Part shown: piece by piece, positions 485 through 5,873 of the stretch
Layout: every line of letters starts with the position of its first letter
Position numbering within the stretch: position 1 is the stretch's first letter
Assembly (NCBI GenBank): GCA_018648945.1
Contig: JABGQJ010000489.1
Coordinates: 1-6,019 of the forward strand
From: Victivallales bacterium
GTDB lineage: Bacteria; Verrucomicrobiota; Lentisphaeria; Oligosphaerales; Lenti-02
Reading direction: 5' to 3'
DNA length: 6,019 nucleotides
Notes under the pieces: model-generated
Told to the model about the DNA's origin: nothing
The model's input: only the letters and a program-made list of their open reading frames with translations
The model's database searches: none
Made by a program: the position numbers and the translations under genes

Positions 485-616
485 GGGACGGAAGCGGCCC
501 GAGTGGCAAGGCCATTGGACTTCCCTCACGAGGCGGGAGCCTCTATCGCAGCTCCGGAGCATCGGCTGGGTCATGTGGCGATTCGCCGAGCGGCAGTGCC
601 AGGGCGAGTGGCTCCA
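485..616 (-). pseudogene. Orphan SUMF1-domain tail, a 132-bp copy of the end of the gene at 4368-5141
   Basis: On the minus strand this reads W-SHSP-WHCRSANR, then twelve diverged residues, then GSRLVREV. It lines up without any gap with W-EFSS-WHCRSASR...GFRLVRAV of the compact SUMF1 gene. Homology begins abruptly at the TGG codon (614-616) and runs past the position of the stop codon into two hairpin sequences, ending near 485. No SUMF1 gene body lies upstream: 617-826 is intergenic and the next gene ends at 827. The TAG stop of the other copy is TGG here (512-514), so the frame reads on toward the IS. The two copies are about 73% identical overall (96 of 132), but the differences cluster in 542-577 and 602-613. 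It could be a relic of a deleted variable gene or a transposed variable-repeat cassette. It is not a template repeat for the other copy, because several differing positions carry no adenine here. Confidence 0.7.
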
Positions 617-826
617 GCCGCCGCCGTCGTCGCGAACCGGGATGGTGAATGTCCCTATCTGCATGCGCCCATCTCGCCAACGCGGACCCGGCAAGGGGGC
701 AAGCCCCCTTGCATCCCCCGGCGCGCCGCTGCGTGGAGCGCCCCGGCTCCGGCGGCTCCGCCCGCCTTCGCCCGTTTCACTCCAATCCGCTGCGCGTCGC
801 TCAGGAAACCGGACATGGATACCTCC
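617..826. other. Gene-free GC-rich spacer with a cluster of inverted repeats
   Basis: No reading frame here has family character. The stretch holds a perfect 10-bp inverted repeat (691-712), the palindrome CGGCGCGCCG (719-728) and a GGCGG-CT-CCGCC hairpin (751-762). It separates the stop of the large gene from the orphan tail and probably contains the end of its transcript. Confidence 0.5.
691..712. terminator. Strong GC-rich hairpin downstream of the large SUMF1 gene
   Basis: GCAAGGGGGC-AA-GCCCCCTTGC is a perfect inverted repeat: a 10-bp stem with a 2-base centre, or a 9-bp stem with a 4-base loop. On the minus strand it lies about 115 bases beyond the stop of the 1089-residue gene and could end its transcript. 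There is no T-run after it on either strand, so it is not a classical intrinsic terminator. It may instead be part of an interspersed palindromic repeat. Confidence 0.4.
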
Positions 827-3800
827 CTACTGAACTGGGGCAGCGGAGCAGACCCGGAAGCCGTACCAGGAGGCGCGCCAGGCCGGGGGGACCCAGACGC
901 GGCGGCCGACGCGGCAGTAGTCGGCGCGGTAGCCCCAACCACCGCCGTGTACCGCGCGGGACGAGCCAACAGAAACTGGGTGCCAGTCCCAGCACCAATC
1001 CCACACATTGCCTGTCATGTCGTGCAGGCCGTAGCCGTTGGCGGCGAACGATCCCGCCGGACTCGTGAATGTGGCGTGCGAGCTGACGAAGTAGTCCGGA
1101 TGGTAGCCCCGCGTTGGGCTGACGTCGTAGGGAAACACTGAATAGCTCACGTAGTTCGCCTGGCTATGCGTGATCGTGTCGCCCCAGGGGAAGCGCTTGC
1201 CTGAGAGACCGCCGCGCGCCGCGTACTCCCACTCCGTATCCGTGGGCAGCCGGTAGCCGGAGGCCGAGGCGGCGTAGGCCACGCTGTCGCTCTCCCCGGT
1301 CTTGTAAACGCTGCCCGACACCGTGTAGCAGGGCGCGCGGCCCTCCATCTGGCTGCGCGCGTTGCACCATTTCACGACGTCGTACCAGCTCACCGAATGC
1401 ACCGGGTGATCCTGGCCCTGGCCAGCACCCGCCGGCAGGTCGGTGTAGCCGTTGGCCAGGCCCCAGGCGCGCACCGCATCCCACTTCGCCTTGGTCACCT
1501 CCGTCCGCCCCATGTAGAACGCCGAGACAGTCAGGGAATACGCGCCGAAGTCCGGGTCCGTCCCGCTGTTCGTCCCGCCGGGGATCAGCGCGAATTCGGC
1601 GGCGGGGGGCGGGGGTTGCGCTCTGTACAAGGCGGTGACGGTCAAGTCACCCGTCACGATTTCGTACTCCGCGTCCCAACCAGTGAACTCCCAACCGACG
1701 GCAATGTCAAACTCCGGCTCGACCGCTGCGTCACCGTGCGTCACCTCTTGCACCAGCGCTCCTCCGCCGGTCCAGGTACCGTGAGCGCCGAGCGCGAAGA
1801 TCACCGTGTGGGGGTCTTGGACCACAAAGGTAGTCGAGGCATAGCGCTTGCCCAACGGGGCGAGTGGGGCGAGGGAGCCCGAGCCGCAGACTGAAGCCCA
1901 CAGGCGGTACTCGCCGGGTTCTGCCGCGGTGACGGTCGCCGAGAGTCGATCTGCCGCCGGCACGATGGTCGGTAGGACACCGCGTCGCGCCGAGGCCGCT
2001 TCCACCCACCACTCGATGCCCGCCGCCGCCACAGGGTTCCTCTCGCCATCGGTGACAGCCAGCGTGAAAGCTGTCGGCTGATCGGTGCCCACCGTGCCCG
2101 GGGGGCTCGCGAACTGGACTTTCGGCAGGCTGAAGATGGGAACGTCGAGCATGGTCCACGTCGGACTGGTCCAGGTCTTCCCCCAATCGAAGATGTCAAA
2201 GCCCGCCTCGACATGGGAGTTGACCAGGAAGTCGACGTCGAACTTCGTCAGTTCGGCCGGCAGCGGGAGGAAGCGCATGTGGGAGTCCAACTGGAGGGTC
2301 GGCTCGACGTAGAGACTGGCGGCGAGGCTGGAGTAGAACTTGGTCCGAAGCACCGGGTAGATCTTCACCGTCGCCAGCAGCATCCCCTCCGCCTGGACAT
2401 CGAAGGTCACGCTCTGGGTGAAACCGTCGCTGGTGATCGTGCTCCACGCGCCGTCGTCGTACTCGACCCCGATCTGGACCATCTTCGCGGCGCTGTAGAC
2501 CGCCTCCATGTTCAACGCGCCCGCAGCCGTCACCTCCATCTCCGCGTAGAAATCCAGTCCCACTTCCTGCCATACGTATAGGGGAGTGACCCAGTAGTGG
2601 AAGGTGTGACTGACGCCGAACAGCTTCTTCTTCGGGTTGAAGCTCAGCTCTCCCGCCAGCTCGTACTTGGCCCAGGCGTCCAGGCTGAACTCACCCGTCG
2701 CCACGATCCGGCAATACTTCAGGGAAAGCCACTCAAAGCGTGCCTCGGTGTCGATGGTCGGCTTGAAACCGATGCCGTACCCCACGTTCAGCCCGCTGCC
2801 CAGATCCGCCTCCCCTTCGTAGCGCCCCTCGATTACCCCCACCTCGTCACGCGATGCCCCCTGCCCGTCGCCGCACTGCCGGGTCAGTTGGAAGGCACCG
2901 GCCGGATCACGATAGACCAGTGCGCCGTCGCGCGTCGCGCCGGTTGGCACCAGCCCATTCATGTCATCGACCACCAGCGAGCTGCACACGACGCCAGTGT
3001 CGACCGCTTCGGCCAGACAGGCGTCCACCGTGGTCAGCTCCACCCCGTCGCGGGTGGGATCGACGGCCACGATGCGCTTCAGCCCCTGGCCGTTCGGGTT
3101 GTCGAACACGATGAGGTCGTCGACAGCCAGGTCGCCCGCGCTGGCCACGGTCACGACCGCCCCGTCCGGCGACACGCCAGCGACTTCGATGCCCTCCGCC
3201 GCGATGTCGCGCGGCGTCTTGGCCATAACGTTGGCAACCTCCATGACCGGAACCGCGAGCACGGTGCGGTTGAAGTAATTGCGGTTGCCCGCCCCGTCCT
3301 CGGCCACGACGACGATCCCGTAGGTGGCGCCCGGCGTCAGGCCGGACAGCTCGGCCTGGGTGGCACCGACGACGGTCTGGACCAGATTGGCGTCGTCGAC
3401 CAATCCGGTGCGGCGGGCCGTGGCGGCATAGACCCGATAGAGCATCTGCTCCGGCACCGTGCGATCGTCGGTGGCGTCGGGCCAGTGCGCGCGGGCCTCG
3501 CCGACTTCGGGCGAGTAGGCCATGACCGCGCCCGCGAACACGGGGTTGGGCGAAACGCGCACGATACCGGCCTCGGGACTCCGCACCCAGGCACCCGCGC
3601 CGCAGGGAAGAGAGTCCGTTTCATAGTAGCGGTTGTCCCGCCAGGCCCAGACCGGCCCGGTCTGGCCGCGCGCCCCGGATTCGAGCTTGAGCGGGGCTGG
3701 GAGCGCCGCATAGGGTTCGTAGCTGATCGGGCCGAGCAGATTCCAGCCCGTGCTTAGGGGAACCGTCTCGCCCCGGACGTTCGAACCGGTCACGGTCAGC

Positions 3801-4096
3801 GGCGGCAGACGATCCTCGGCGCGGTCGGGCAGCGCGGGCGCGTAGACCCAGTAGCCCCGGCCCGGCTGGATCTCCTCCGCCTCCACGTAGTAACCCAGAT
3901 CGGGGGCGTACTCCCAGACAGTGCCCTCGATCGTCCCCTGGAACACGACATCCGGACGCGAATCGTCCGGCGCGATGGGCACCGACACGAGATTCCAGCC
4001 GGGAACCAACTCCAGCGCAAACTCCACGGCTGTCGCCTGCCGGGCAAGAAATGCCGCAAACAGCACGGCCATTCGTAGCATGTGTCTTGTCCTCAT
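827..4096 (-). CDS. Secreted multidomain protein with C-terminal SUMF1 (FGE-like, C-type-lectin fold) domain
   Basis: 1089 residues. An N-terminal signal peptide (about 1-23: positive start, hydrophobic core, ATA before VEF) points to export. Two related modules follow (about 31-88 and 116-174) with PGWNLVSVP / TGWNLLGP and VWEYAP...GRGYWVYAP / VWAWRD...GAWVRSP. Next come a fibronectin-III-like stretch (about 190-285, LSGLTPGATYGIVVVAEDGA), a long beta-rich region I do not recognise (about 290-655), an Ig-like stretch (660-758), an InlB-type repeat (763-826: HGTWTGGGALVQEVTHG, GWEFTGWD, GDLTVTALY) and a SUMF1 domain (834-1085). The SUMF1 part has IPGG, GRTEVTKAKWDAV, HSVSWYDVVKWCN, YRLPTDTEWEYAARGG, NGYGLHDMTGNVWDW, GGGW and YGFRV. 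It lacks the C-x4-C pair of catalytic formylglycine-generating enzymes, so a binding role is likelier than sulfatase activation. The start at 4096 is supported by the signal peptide and by GGAG 8 bases upstream. It is probably a surface or adhesin-like protein, which is inference. Confidence 0.9.
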   Translation of the reverse strand: MRTRHMLRMAVLFAAFLARQATAVEFALELVPGWNLVSVPIAPDDSRPDVVFQGTIEGTVWEYAPDLGYYVEAEEIQPGRGYWVYAPALPDRAEDRLPPLTVTGSNVRGETVPLSTGWNLLGPISYEPYAALPAPLKLESGARGQTGPVWAWRDNRYYETDSLPCGAGAWVRSPEAGIVRVSPNPVFAGAVMAYSPEVGEARAHWPDATDDRTVPEQMLYRVYAATARRTGLVDDANLVQTVVGATQAELSGLTPGATYGIVVVAEDGAGNRNYFNRTVLAVPVMEVANVMAKTPRDIAAEGIEVAGVSPDGAVVTVASAGDLAVDDLIVFDNPNGQGLKRIVAVDPTRDGVELTTVDACLAEAVDTGVVCSSLVVDDMNGLVPTGATRDGALVYRDPAGAFQLTRQCGDGQGASRDEVGVIEGRYEGEADLGSGLNVGYGIGFKPTIDTEARFEWLSLKYCRIVATGEFSLDAWAKYELAGELSFNPKKKLFGVSHTFHYWVTPLYVWQEVGLDFYAEMEVTAAGALNMEAVYSAAKMVQIGVEYDDGAWSTITSDGFTQSVTFDVQAEGMLLATVKIYPVLRTKFYSSLAASLYVEPTLQLDSHMRFLPLPAELTKFDVDFLVNSHVEAGFDIFDWGKTWTSPTWTMLDVPIFSLPKVQFASPPGTVGTDQPTAFTLAVTDGERNPVAAAGIEWWVEAASARRGVLPTIVPAADRLSATVTAAEPGEYRLWASVCGSGSLAPLAPLGKRYASTTFVVQDPHTVIFALGAHGTWTGGGALVQEVTHGDAAVEPEFDIAVGWEFTGWDAEYEIVTGDLTVTALYRAQPPPPAAEFALIPGGTNSGTDPDFGAYSLTVSAFYMGRTEVTKAKWDAVRAWGLANGYTDLPAGAGQGQDHPVHSVSWYDVVKWCNARSQMEGRAPCYTVSGSVYKTGESDSVAYAASASGYRLPTDTEWEYAARGGLSGKRFPWGDTITHSQANYVSYSVFPYDVSPTRGYHPDYFVSSHATFTSPAGSFAANGYGLHDMTGNVWDWCWDWHPVSVGSSRAVHGGGWGYRADYCRVGRRVWVPPAWRASWYGFRVCSAAPVQ

Positions 4097-4104
4097 TCGC
4101 CTTG

Positions 4105-4108
4105 CTCC
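4105..4108 (-). promoter_or_regulatory. Ribosome binding site of the large secreted protein
   Basis: On the minus strand GGAG sits 8 bases before the ATG at 4096-4094. It supports this start over the in-frame ATG codons at residues 6 and 9, which would shorten the positively charged start of the signal peptide. Confidence 0.6.
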
Positions 4109-4147
4109 GCCTTGCGGGTAACGCGATCCAAGGAAGTCCTGCGCAGA

Positions 4148-4176
4148 ATATTACACCTCATAGGTGTGGAGGTCAA
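4148..4176 (-). promoter_or_regulatory. Sigma70-type promoter of the large secreted protein
   Basis: On the minus strand TTGACC (4176-4171) is followed after exactly 17 bases by TAATAT (4153-4148). Both boxes are close to the TTGACA/TATAAT consensus. A transcript would start near 4141, giving a leader of roughly 45 bases before the ATG at 4096. It stands out as AT-rich against the GC-rich surroundings. Confidence 0.65.
4153..4167. promoter_or_regulatory. Candidate operator palindrome inside the promoter spacer
   Basis: ACACCT-CAT-AGGTGT is a perfect 6-bp inverted repeat around a 3-base centre. It fills most of the 17-base spacer and touches the -10 box. A dimeric repressor or activator bound here would control promoter access directly. 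No regulator gene is visible in the window, so the factor is unknown. Confidence 0.5.
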
Positions 4177-4340
4177 GGGTGCGAGACGGGCGTGTGTTGT
4201 CCTTACTGTAAAATACGGCGCGGTTTCGTCTGTAGTTGCTCAGCCGTCAAAACCGCCACAGTACCTTTTCGGCCTTCGCACATCTTCGCATATGCCCCCT
4301 CATGCATGTCCTCTGCATGGTGGCCATCGGGCCGCAACGA

Positions 4341-4356
4341 GGGACGGAAACGTCCC
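4341..4356. other. Hairpin with GAAA loop downstream of the SUMF1 gene
   Basis: GGGACG-GAAA-CGTCCC on the plus strand is a perfect 6-bp GC-rich stem with a GAAA tetraloop, 12 bases past the stop codon (the coding strand shows a TTTC loop). Hairpin or cruciform structures with GRNA loops just after the variable repeat are known from DGRs such as Bordetella phage BPP-1, where they aid retrohoming. The orphan copy has the same structure at 485-500 with one mismatched pair and a GAAG loop. A terminator role is possible, but no T-run follows. Confidence 0.6.
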
Positions 4357-4374
4357 GAATAGCAACGCTATTCG
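4356..4374. other. 8-bp hairpin overlapping the stop codon of the SUMF1 gene
   Basis: CGAATAGC-AAC-GCTATTCG is a perfect 8-bp stem with a 3-base loop. It contains the TAG stop (4370-4368) and abuts the GAAA-loop hairpin, sharing one base. In the orphan (500-518) six of the eight pairs are kept, plus one possible G-T wobble. Confidence 0.55.
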
Positions 4375-5141
4375 ACCGCCCTCACGAGGCGGAAGCCCAA
4401 GCCGGAGTACCGGAACGACGGCGGCACCCTGCTGCGACTCGCCGAACGGCAGTGCCAGGACGAGAACTCCCAGCAGCTGCCGCGTTCCACGCGGTAGGAC
4501 CCGTCGGCAGCGCCCTTCGGGTCCGTCTGTTTGTCCATGCTGTAGTCGGCATACCAATCGCTGCACCATTCCCACACGTTGCCGTGCATGTCGTAGAGAC
4601 CCCACGGGTTCGGCTTTTTCGTCCCGACCTCGTGGGTCGTAGAGCCCGAGTTGTCGCGGTACCAGGCGTACTTCCCCAGCTTGCCGGCTCCATCCCCGAA
4701 CGAGTAGGCTGTCTTCGTGCCGGCCCGGCAGGCATACTCCCATTCGGCCTCGGTGGGCAGCCGGAACGTGCCGATGCCCATGCCATTCAGCTTCCTGACG
4801 AACTCCTGGCAATCCTCCCAGGAAACCTGTTCGACGGGGTTGGCGGGCTTCCCGTTGAATCTCGACGGGTTGGTGCCCATCACCGCCTCCCACTGGGCCT
4901 GGGTCACTTCGAAGACGCCCATGTGGAAAGGCCTGCTGATCGCTACCTCGTGCACCGGTCCTTCGTTGTCCTCGCGGTCCTTCTCAGCCATGGACGACCC
5001 ACTGACGAACGTTCCGGCGGGAATCTGCTTCATCCGGAGCGGGATCTTCTCGGGACCTGGAATGGTCAGAACCAACTCCTTGCCTGCCGACACACGGACC
5101 CTCCCACGAGCCCACGTTACCAGCCGAACAATCCAGTTCAT
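4368..5141 (-). CDS. Compact SUMF1 (FGE-like) domain protein, candidate DGR variable protein
   Basis: A single SUMF1 domain of 257 residues. In order from the chosen ATG it has IPAGTF (about 40-45), GPVHEV (61-66), FEVTQAQWEAVMG (77-89), PVEQVSWEDC (102-111), FRLPTEAEWEYACRAG (126-141), NPWGLYDMHGNVWEW (178-192), RGSCW (220-224), CRSASR (231-236) and GFRLV (249-253). The fold is related to C-type lectins. The C-x4-C pair of true formylglycine-generating enzymes is absent (the cysteines here are C-x7-C), so catalysis is unlikely and a ligand-binding role is probable. No signal peptide is evident. The frame also allows a TTG start at 5171, adding ten residues with no family character; neither start has a strong ribosome binding site. 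The last 34 codons are the diversified segment described separately. The large SUMF1 gene follows 272 bases downstream on the same strand with its own promoter. Confidence 0.88.
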   Translation of the reverse strand: MNWIVRLVTWARGRVRVSAGKELVLTIPGPEKIPLRMKQIPAGTFVSGSSMAEKDREDNEGPVHEVAISRPFHMGVFEVTQAQWEAVMGTNPSRFNGKPANPVEQVSWEDCQEFVRKLNGMGIGTFRLPTEAEWEYACRAGTKTAYSFGDGAGKLGKYAWYRDNSGSTTHEVGTKKPNPWGLYDMHGNVWEWCSDWYADYSMDKQTDPKGAADGSYRVERGSCWEFSSWHCRSASRSRVPPSFRYSGLGFRLVRAVE

Positions 5142-5873
5142 CGCCTGCCGCCATTTGCCTGCCGGTTCCAACGCAACTCGCCGGACAACGGCCCGAATCC
5201 ATCCTGAGGATTACACTGCCGCAGCTTAGTGTCCTCTCTTCCGGTATCAAGTTGGTCCCGGTCGGGGAAGCCCCAAGCACGATCCGCATGTGGTACCTAG
5301 GGCGTATCACATCCGACCTACCCCCGCCATCGGGTCCTTCCGGGGGTCGCCTTGACAGTGGTCTGTCCGACACAAGCGAGAATAGGGGACAGTGTATCTT
5401 CTGATTGTCAAGTCTTTTCCCGGATTCTTGGCACAACAAGGTCCCACGTCTCCCCGCCTGGTGCGTTTTTCGCGGGGGTTGTCGGTTCTCTGAGGCGCTC
5501 GGGTCCGAAAGGTGTCGGGATCGGCTGGTCCGTGGCGAAGAGCGGCTGTGCCCGGCCCCCGCTTTGCGGGGCGACTTGAGGGGGGAACCGGTGCTCCCTT
5601 ATGGTTTACGTGCGCTCGGCCCAAAACAACGTCGCGGATCGGTTCCGGAACGGGGAGGAGGCGGCTCCATCCCGGGGCTGGCGCTAGGCATCTCGTGCAC
5701 TTCGTGGTTCCTCCGCCGGGCTTTGGCTTACTGTCCCGTGCAGTGCGTGGTGGGTGGTCGATCCCGCTTGGCGGGCCCTGCCCCGGCCTGCTTGGTTATT
5801 TGCGTGCCGTTTCGCTTGCCGACGGTGTTTCGCGATGCCCAACCGATCACCTTGCCTTTCGGGATGGAGCCGC
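5142..5873. other. Gene-free stretch between the SUMF1 gene and the right-edge gene
   Basis: Several open frames exist on both strands, but none has recognisable motifs, and the overlapping frames look like chance openings in GC-rich DNA. What can be seen is a nested inverted repeat (5351-5412), a CCCCGC-TTT-GCGGGG hairpin (5557-5571), a CCCGC-TTG-GCGGG hairpin (5763-5775) and a 16-base inverted pair (5659-5674 and 5860-5875). No sequence resembling the SUMF1 tail, and so no template repeat, was found on either strand. The promoter of the compact SUMF1 gene should lie here but no good one is visible. Confidence 0.5.
5351..5412. repeat. Nested inverted repeat between TTGACA-like ends
   Basis: CTTGACA (5351-5357) pairs with TGTCAAG (5406-5412), and inside it CTGTCC (5363-5368) pairs with GGACAG (5387-5392). 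The arms are spaced unequally (5 and 13 bases). Each outer arm carries a TTGACA box facing inward, but neither has a -10 box at 16-18 bases. The best minus-strand partner is CCTATT at 19 bases. It could be a palindromic interspersed repeat or a regulatory site for the compact SUMF1 gene. Confidence 0.35.

Follow-up and report, generated by a model that had tools for sequence, protein, structure and literature searches.

We propose that the SUMF1-type gene at positions 4368-5171 of the window (the whole 6,019-nucleotide stretch of DNA analysed here) is a target of a diversity-generating retroelement (DGR) whose reverse transcriptase (RT) and template lie elsewhere in the genome, and that the second copy of its tail, at 485-626, is an old, decaying variable repeat (VR) cut from the gene. 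We favour this reading slightly, with a probability of roughly 0.55. Taken as a whole, the window probably holds a DGR target, remote or former, and alongside it a decayed piece of a VR; most likely it adds another target to a class of system already known. The gene has the anatomy and the fold of a DGR target, and its relatives carry real DGRs with matching templates; that a DGR of this sort is present in the genome to which the window belongs, and has acted on 4368-5171, is our inference. The features concerned are as follows.

4368-5171, minus strand: SUMF1/FGE-type (C-type-lectin-like) protein of 267 aa, proposed DGR target (PF03781, E 3.2e-49; best match TvpA)
4372-4515, minus strand: VR-like segment, in register with the 144-nt VR and template repeat (TR) of the relative G123, surest in 4380-4472 (ungapped alignment to the G123 template)
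4375-4397, minus strand: IMH-like 3' end of the variable segment, GGCTTCCGCCTCGTGAGGGCGGT (G123 VR form, not TR form, at 3/3 differing bases)
4357-4373, minus strand: hairpin 1, 7-bp stem and GTT loop, containing the TAG stop (stem scan; fold of 4335-4375)
4341-4356, minus strand: hairpin 2, 6-bp stem, GGGACG-TTTC-CGTCCC (sequence; the computed fold pairs 5 of the 6)
485-626, minus strand: solo second copy of the tail and 3' flank, geneless, with its stop lost and hairpins degraded (repeat, alignment, Pfam, tblastn, fold z -0.20)
827-4096, minus strand: 1089-aa protein with a C-terminal SUMF1 domain (residues 836-1082; PF03781, E 1.1e-38)
2-241 (also given as 2-244), plus strand: 3' part of an ORF for a transposase-like protein (weak DDE_Tnp_1 and Tn5-dimerisation matches)

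The 4368-5171 protein belongs to the SUMF1/FGE family (168.3 bits on PF03781 vs a gathering cut-off of 23.3). No RT was found in the window among the listed ORFs of at least 80 aa, judged by reading, and its repeats include no template with A at the variable columns; both absences count against the DGR-target reading.

Two copies of one tail

The original prediction held that two SUMF1 tails in the window differ in the way DGR variable repeats do, and all its counts were reproduced: 36 mismatches occur over 132 ungapped columns, 24 of them in the 48 columns of codons 2-5 and 14-25 and 12 in the 84 elsewhere, with block changes at codon positions 1/2/3 of 9/11/4. The full repeat measures 142 nt (485-626 and 4341-4482; 73% identical, ungapped), identity drops to background on either side of it, and the similarity is well beyond chance.

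The interpretation placed on these counts fared less well. GFRLV, said to be part of an invariant framework, reads GSRLV in the 485 copy (TTC/TCC). Nor is the 485-616 piece a gene end: tblastn there gives SUMF1 residues 231-267 only and no SUMF1 domain upstream of 485-626, the 118-aa ORF at the piece has no Pfam match at E 0.1, and TGG stands in place of the TAG stop of the gene copy. The third-base argument stands as a count of four third-position changes and is weak as evidence, since four or fewer of 24 has p = 0.059 under equal rates; moreover, third bases differ at several variable codons (GAG/AGC, GTG/ACC, GGC/GAT, TTG/AGA). The block changes show no excess of A either: 13/24 involve A, and 13/24 are transitions.

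The claim that both are live repeats of one template finds no support: the 485 copy is geneless, and the window copies differ at 13/67 of the columns that are non-A in the G123 template. In the relative G361, three VRs of one template differ mutually at 0-2/68 such columns, and two further copies differ from those three and from one another at 6-8/68. So many non-A differences indicate that no single template recently gave rise to both window copies and, together with the third-base disagreements, that the pair is old.

The 485-626 copy is probably a truncated, decayed VR fragment. It was ruled out as a template, being not A-rich, having a VR-side 3' end and showing A in only 13/24 block differences. 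It could in principle be a silent cassette, comprising the tail with its 3' end and hairpins and maintained away from any gene, that donates sequence to SUMF1 tails by gene conversion, which we regard as very improbable; if true, the same tail would be diversified in one lineage by retroelement and cassette exchange alike. The transposase-like ORF, whose DDE_Tnp_1 match (E 1.2e-4) falls slightly below the cut-off, ends ~240 bases from the solo copy, and an insertion or deletion there might have severed it from its gene.

The coding-strand flank of 4368-5171 reads GAATAGC-GTT-GCTATTC and then GGGACG-TTTC-CGTCCC, tandem hairpins with the TAG within the first stem, so that an inverted repeat lies directly past the VR (4341-4373), with loops unlike GRNA. 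As single-stranded DNA, 4335-4375 folds at -10.8 kcal/mol vs a shuffle mean of -3.55 (z -4.87), and matching 51-nt stretches score z -4.79 for the gene copy and -0.20 for the one at 485. The BPP-1 target is described with the same arrangement, a VR at the gene's 3' end followed by inverted repeats with the TAG stop inside a hairpin (PMC3240598). Stems of BPP-1 type are given there as rich in GC and 7-10 bp long, their sense-strand loops being 4 nt of the form GRNA, whereas hairpin 1 of the window is AT-rich with a 3-nt loop and hairpin 2 has 6 bp and TTTC (GAAA on the other strand only). In a stem scan, a perfect stem of at least 7 bp was found for 6/24 related VRs and 3/24 templates, and a hairpin past the VR is thus weakly diagnostic; those 24 VR/TR pairs (434/457 mismatches at A) passed an 80% filter and some come from one genome, so that the proportion at A is partly so by construction. 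The hairpins were also considered as a terminator and rejected, with no terminator-like site in 4200-4500, and Rfam gave no match at its gathering threshold.

Both window copies have the VR form at the three bases that separate the G123 VR and TR ends. The same bases encode the common SUMF1 ending GFRLVRAV, and plain coding homology could therefore explain this match of the IMH-like end.

Templates in related genomes

A search of 387 genomes from a single phylum and 197 from a single class gave as nearest matches G434 (62% over residues 28-267), G123 (64-65% over part), G324 (58%) and G361 (57%). DGR-type RTs occur in both G123 and G361, each of which also has SUMF1 VR/TR pairs with A-specific differences. 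No RT match was found in G324 or in G434, a draft genome that holds the closest gene by body. Among ten near genomes, six had an RT match at 1e-10, and four of these six (G123, G361, G325, G238) had DGR-type motifs; G324 and G384 had none.

The G123 DGR comprises an RT (C1:714399-715307), a template (C1:714129-714272) and a target VR (C1:715969-716112), and template and VR differ at 22/144 columns, 21 of them at template A. A template of the predicted form, with A-rich variable codons and the end CTGGGCTTCCGCCTCGTGAGC, thus does exist beside a DGR-type RT in a relative. In G266, an A-rich template-like repeat with the end CTGGGCTTCCGCCTCGTGAGC adjoins an RT sharing 87% identity with the G123 RT across residues 106-327. 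Against the G123 template, the window tail (93 nt, TGG to GTG AGG) has 31 mismatches, which fall at 19/26 A columns and 12/67 others (Fisher test, p about 1e-6), and the template-like repeat of G266 gives the same split. In blastn, the G123 VR (E 8.6e-11) and TR (E 1.3e-8) were far better matches to the window repeat than the G434 tail (E 0.003). The best DNA match of the tail is thus to a real DGR, which argues against ordinary paralogues, and these results are among those on which the DGR-target reading rests.

The SUMF1 tails of genomes without an RT match also show an A-column excess against the G123 template (p 0.0005 to 0.4); the Fisher value is therefore in part a family-wide and base-composition effect and was weighted less. 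The G123 template shares 55/67 framework columns with the window tail and the G434 tail shares 54/67. Given this and the skew in genomes without an RT match, framework likeness and block-wise divergence denote kinship with DGR tails, not a live DGR.

The G123 system resembles the window in those framework columns, in the VR-side 3' end and in having a SUMF1 target. It differs in that RT, template and an HRDC-domain gene are adjacent there, the HRDC gene next to the RT, with none of the three in the window, and in that its target is just 45% identical to the window protein. An HRDC gene by the RT is also described for the Treponema denticola DGR (PMC4891356). Paralogues in G123 with 64-65% identity to the window protein have no A-specific match to the G123 template, which, like the 45% target, weighs against the DGR-target reading. 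In G123 at L207 (C1:5636000-5650000), tandem SUMF1 proteins occur, some with two or three SUMF1 domains per chain, and this run has no A-specific match to the template.

The absence of an RT match in G434, whose tail is so alike, bears on another explanation, in which both copies come from DGR targets, the retroelement has gone from the lineage and both now drift as ordinary sequence. The 13/67 non-A differences and the lost stop and degraded hairpins of the solo copy fit this account, and orphan targets are reported in T. denticola isolates without an RT (PMC4891356). On the other side, the hairpins next to the VR of the gene itself are intact (z -4.87), and its reading frame is unbroken for 267 codons. 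We hold this account to be unlikely, though by no means negligible.

A viral contig (L081, 57% identical) carries a complete DGR with a SUMF1 target (VR 2253-2350, TR 2566-2663, RT 3222-4316) in which 18/18 VR/TR mismatches are at template A, adding support to the DGR-target reading, and in the highest-ranking genome locus (L001, 54%) the mismatches of a VR/TR pair are at A in 15/15 cases. Clear SUMF1 VR/TR pairs lay inside the fetched stretch in 5/159 loci (L001, L071, L079, L081, L082), a low share that counts against the window reading; further SUMF1 pairs occur at RT loci elsewhere in the genomes of those loci. A DGR RT (E 1e-35 or better) was present in 15/40 genomes vs 13/197 in the class of G123, a higher rate that is suggestive only: the 40 genomes were taken from 80 SUMF1 loci, of which L056, L071 and L079 were chosen partly for an RT already seen, and the 197-genome count used another RT as query.

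Exact patterns for the window VR end or a like template found no match in genome contigs or viral contigs, and in plasmid records gave short partial matches only, mostly in genes annotated as SUMF1-type (8 records). The window repeat likewise had no DNA match in 3 genomes of the family of G434. In G361, a template-type repeat, WNNNARNCRSANRNRNTPSNRNNNVGFRLLS, was seen at L220 (C281:18538-18655), and the 2.3 kb covered there contain no SUMF1 gene; since the locus is close to the end of its contig, an RT belonging to it may lie outside the available sequence.

The other SUMF1 gene of the window may tell a similar story. The tail of the 827-4096 protein (827-1000, minus strand) resembles a second template type, that of G361 at L196, with 27/43 mismatches at template A and GFRVCSA near the end of both; the caveats on the 4368-5171 match apply equally here. 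If both tail readings hold, the 6-kb stretch contains targets or former targets of two template types.

Residue choice and ordinary divergence

The argument from block-wise divergence proved not to be specific to DGRs, as tails from genomes without an RT match show such divergence as well. The two-copy pattern alone is no proof of a DGR. Templates are A-rich, and it is the same residues of the pocket that vary everywhere. The control comprised in-register tails from 40 loci, with 10 RT-minus tails from 8 loci; its RT-plus set contains some templates, and L019 was labelled RT-minus although its genome has a DGR-like locus. At template Asn columns, K, E, Q and M made up 9.2% of 120 residues in the RT-minus set vs 7.8% of 192 in the RT-plus set.

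These data could mean that the window copies are ordinary paralogues, with the ligand-site residues of SUMF1-like proteins changing rapidly under selection and a retroelement never having acted on the gene. Such an account fits the variation of the same columns in genomes without an RT match, the nearly equal K/E/Q/M shares, the lack of A excess in the block differences and a third-position deficit that reaches only p = 0.059. It sits poorly with the flank: of the 132 nt, 27 follow the stop codon (4368-4370), and this non-coding part is identical between the copies at 22/27 positions. It is also at odds with the residues themselves. In 17 near proteins, the window's included, 167/170 residues at ten AAC-type columns are reachable from AAC by A change, and one AGG column holds R, W or G in 14/17, AGG being able to give no other residues; these columns fit AAC and AGG template codons, with only 3/170 residues unreachable. 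The 17 derive from the 19 proteins of <345 aa among the first 40 hits, those in register being kept and P0014 and P0015 dropped. An earlier hand-picked set (13 proteins, 11 for the AAC columns) gave 107/110 reachable. In addition, K, E, Q, M and W account for 6.5% of residues at 11 variable tail columns vs 27.1% at 26 variable body columns of a 14-sequence alignment. The conserved flank, the residue choice and the tail/body contrast all speak for the DGR-target reading, and we consider ordinary paralogues rather improbable.

The residue pattern extends to the family. Among all 120 listed hits, 65 were in register, with 634/650 residues reachable from AAC and R, W or G in 41/65, and the whole group looks DGR-shaped, which fits the reading of the window gene as a target and does not single it out.

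Fold, proposed course and meaning

The original prediction of the C-type-lectin-type fold known from DGR targets is supported, with TvpA, itself a DGR target, closest by profile, sequence and fold. TvpA of T. denticola (PDB 2y3c) is the nearest solved structure to the 4368-5171 protein, which has this fold with a C-terminal variable part; a first structure model of the protein, with pLDDT 66.3, was set aside. An RT and a template are known for the TvpA DGR and not for the window gene. In the HMMER alignment to human FGE, whose active-site cysteines are 336 and 341 (numbers from PDB titles), the two CHRSYC cysteines face C and S, an adjacent gap making this placement uncertain. The N-terminus of the protein (MNWIVRLVTWARGRVRVSAGKE; 5101-5171, minus strand) resembles the signal peptide of relatives (e.g., MNGIVRLVIWALAGVCVAMPGAEPVAVSKE), with its hydrophobic core spoiled.

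Published descriptions provide precedents. A SUMF1-type DGR target is reported from Leptolyngbya (PMC6642488), FGE-type folds are reported for DGR targets (PMC6328139), remote and orphan targets have been described (PMC4891356), and A bias is described as near-universal, as is the C-type-lectin fold of targets (PMC8144416). A limited literature search by title found no published work on the DGRs of this lineage.

Under the preferred reading, copying of an A-rich template, expected as a repeat of ~140 nt with an end like GGCTTCCGCCTCGTGAG and AAC codons at the variable columns, would introduce errors at A. The mutated product would then take the place of the gene's last 100-140 nt, as far as the IMH-like end (4375-4397), with the hairpins (4341-4373) following, and the replacement would alter the ligand site of the C-type-lectin-like protein. 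The 485-626 copy would be an old VR with its 3' flank, severed from its gene and decaying.

In weighing this reading, we set the G123 RT, template and VR, the mismatches at template A, the blastn ranking, the residue choice, the viral system, the TvpA structure, the tail/body contrast and the conserved flank against the lack of an RT and template in the window, the skew in RT-minus tails, G434, the third-base disagreements, the G123 paralogues and 45% target, and the scarcity of pairs among the loci. Of the original DGR reading, what has held up is that the tail is of a kind that DGRs diversify, given the templates of G123 and G266 and the TvpA-like fold; that both copies are live VRs has not.

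SUMF1-type DGR targets are already known, and the window adds a likely remote one. A caution follows for similar cases: block-wise divergence of two tails is no proof of a DGR by itself, because the same columns vary in genomes without an RT match. Perhaps two template types appear to have diversified the SUMF1 tails of this lineage. Should a DGR be confirmed, the 4368-5171 gene would offer a site at which targeted hypermutation could be followed in an uncultured population.
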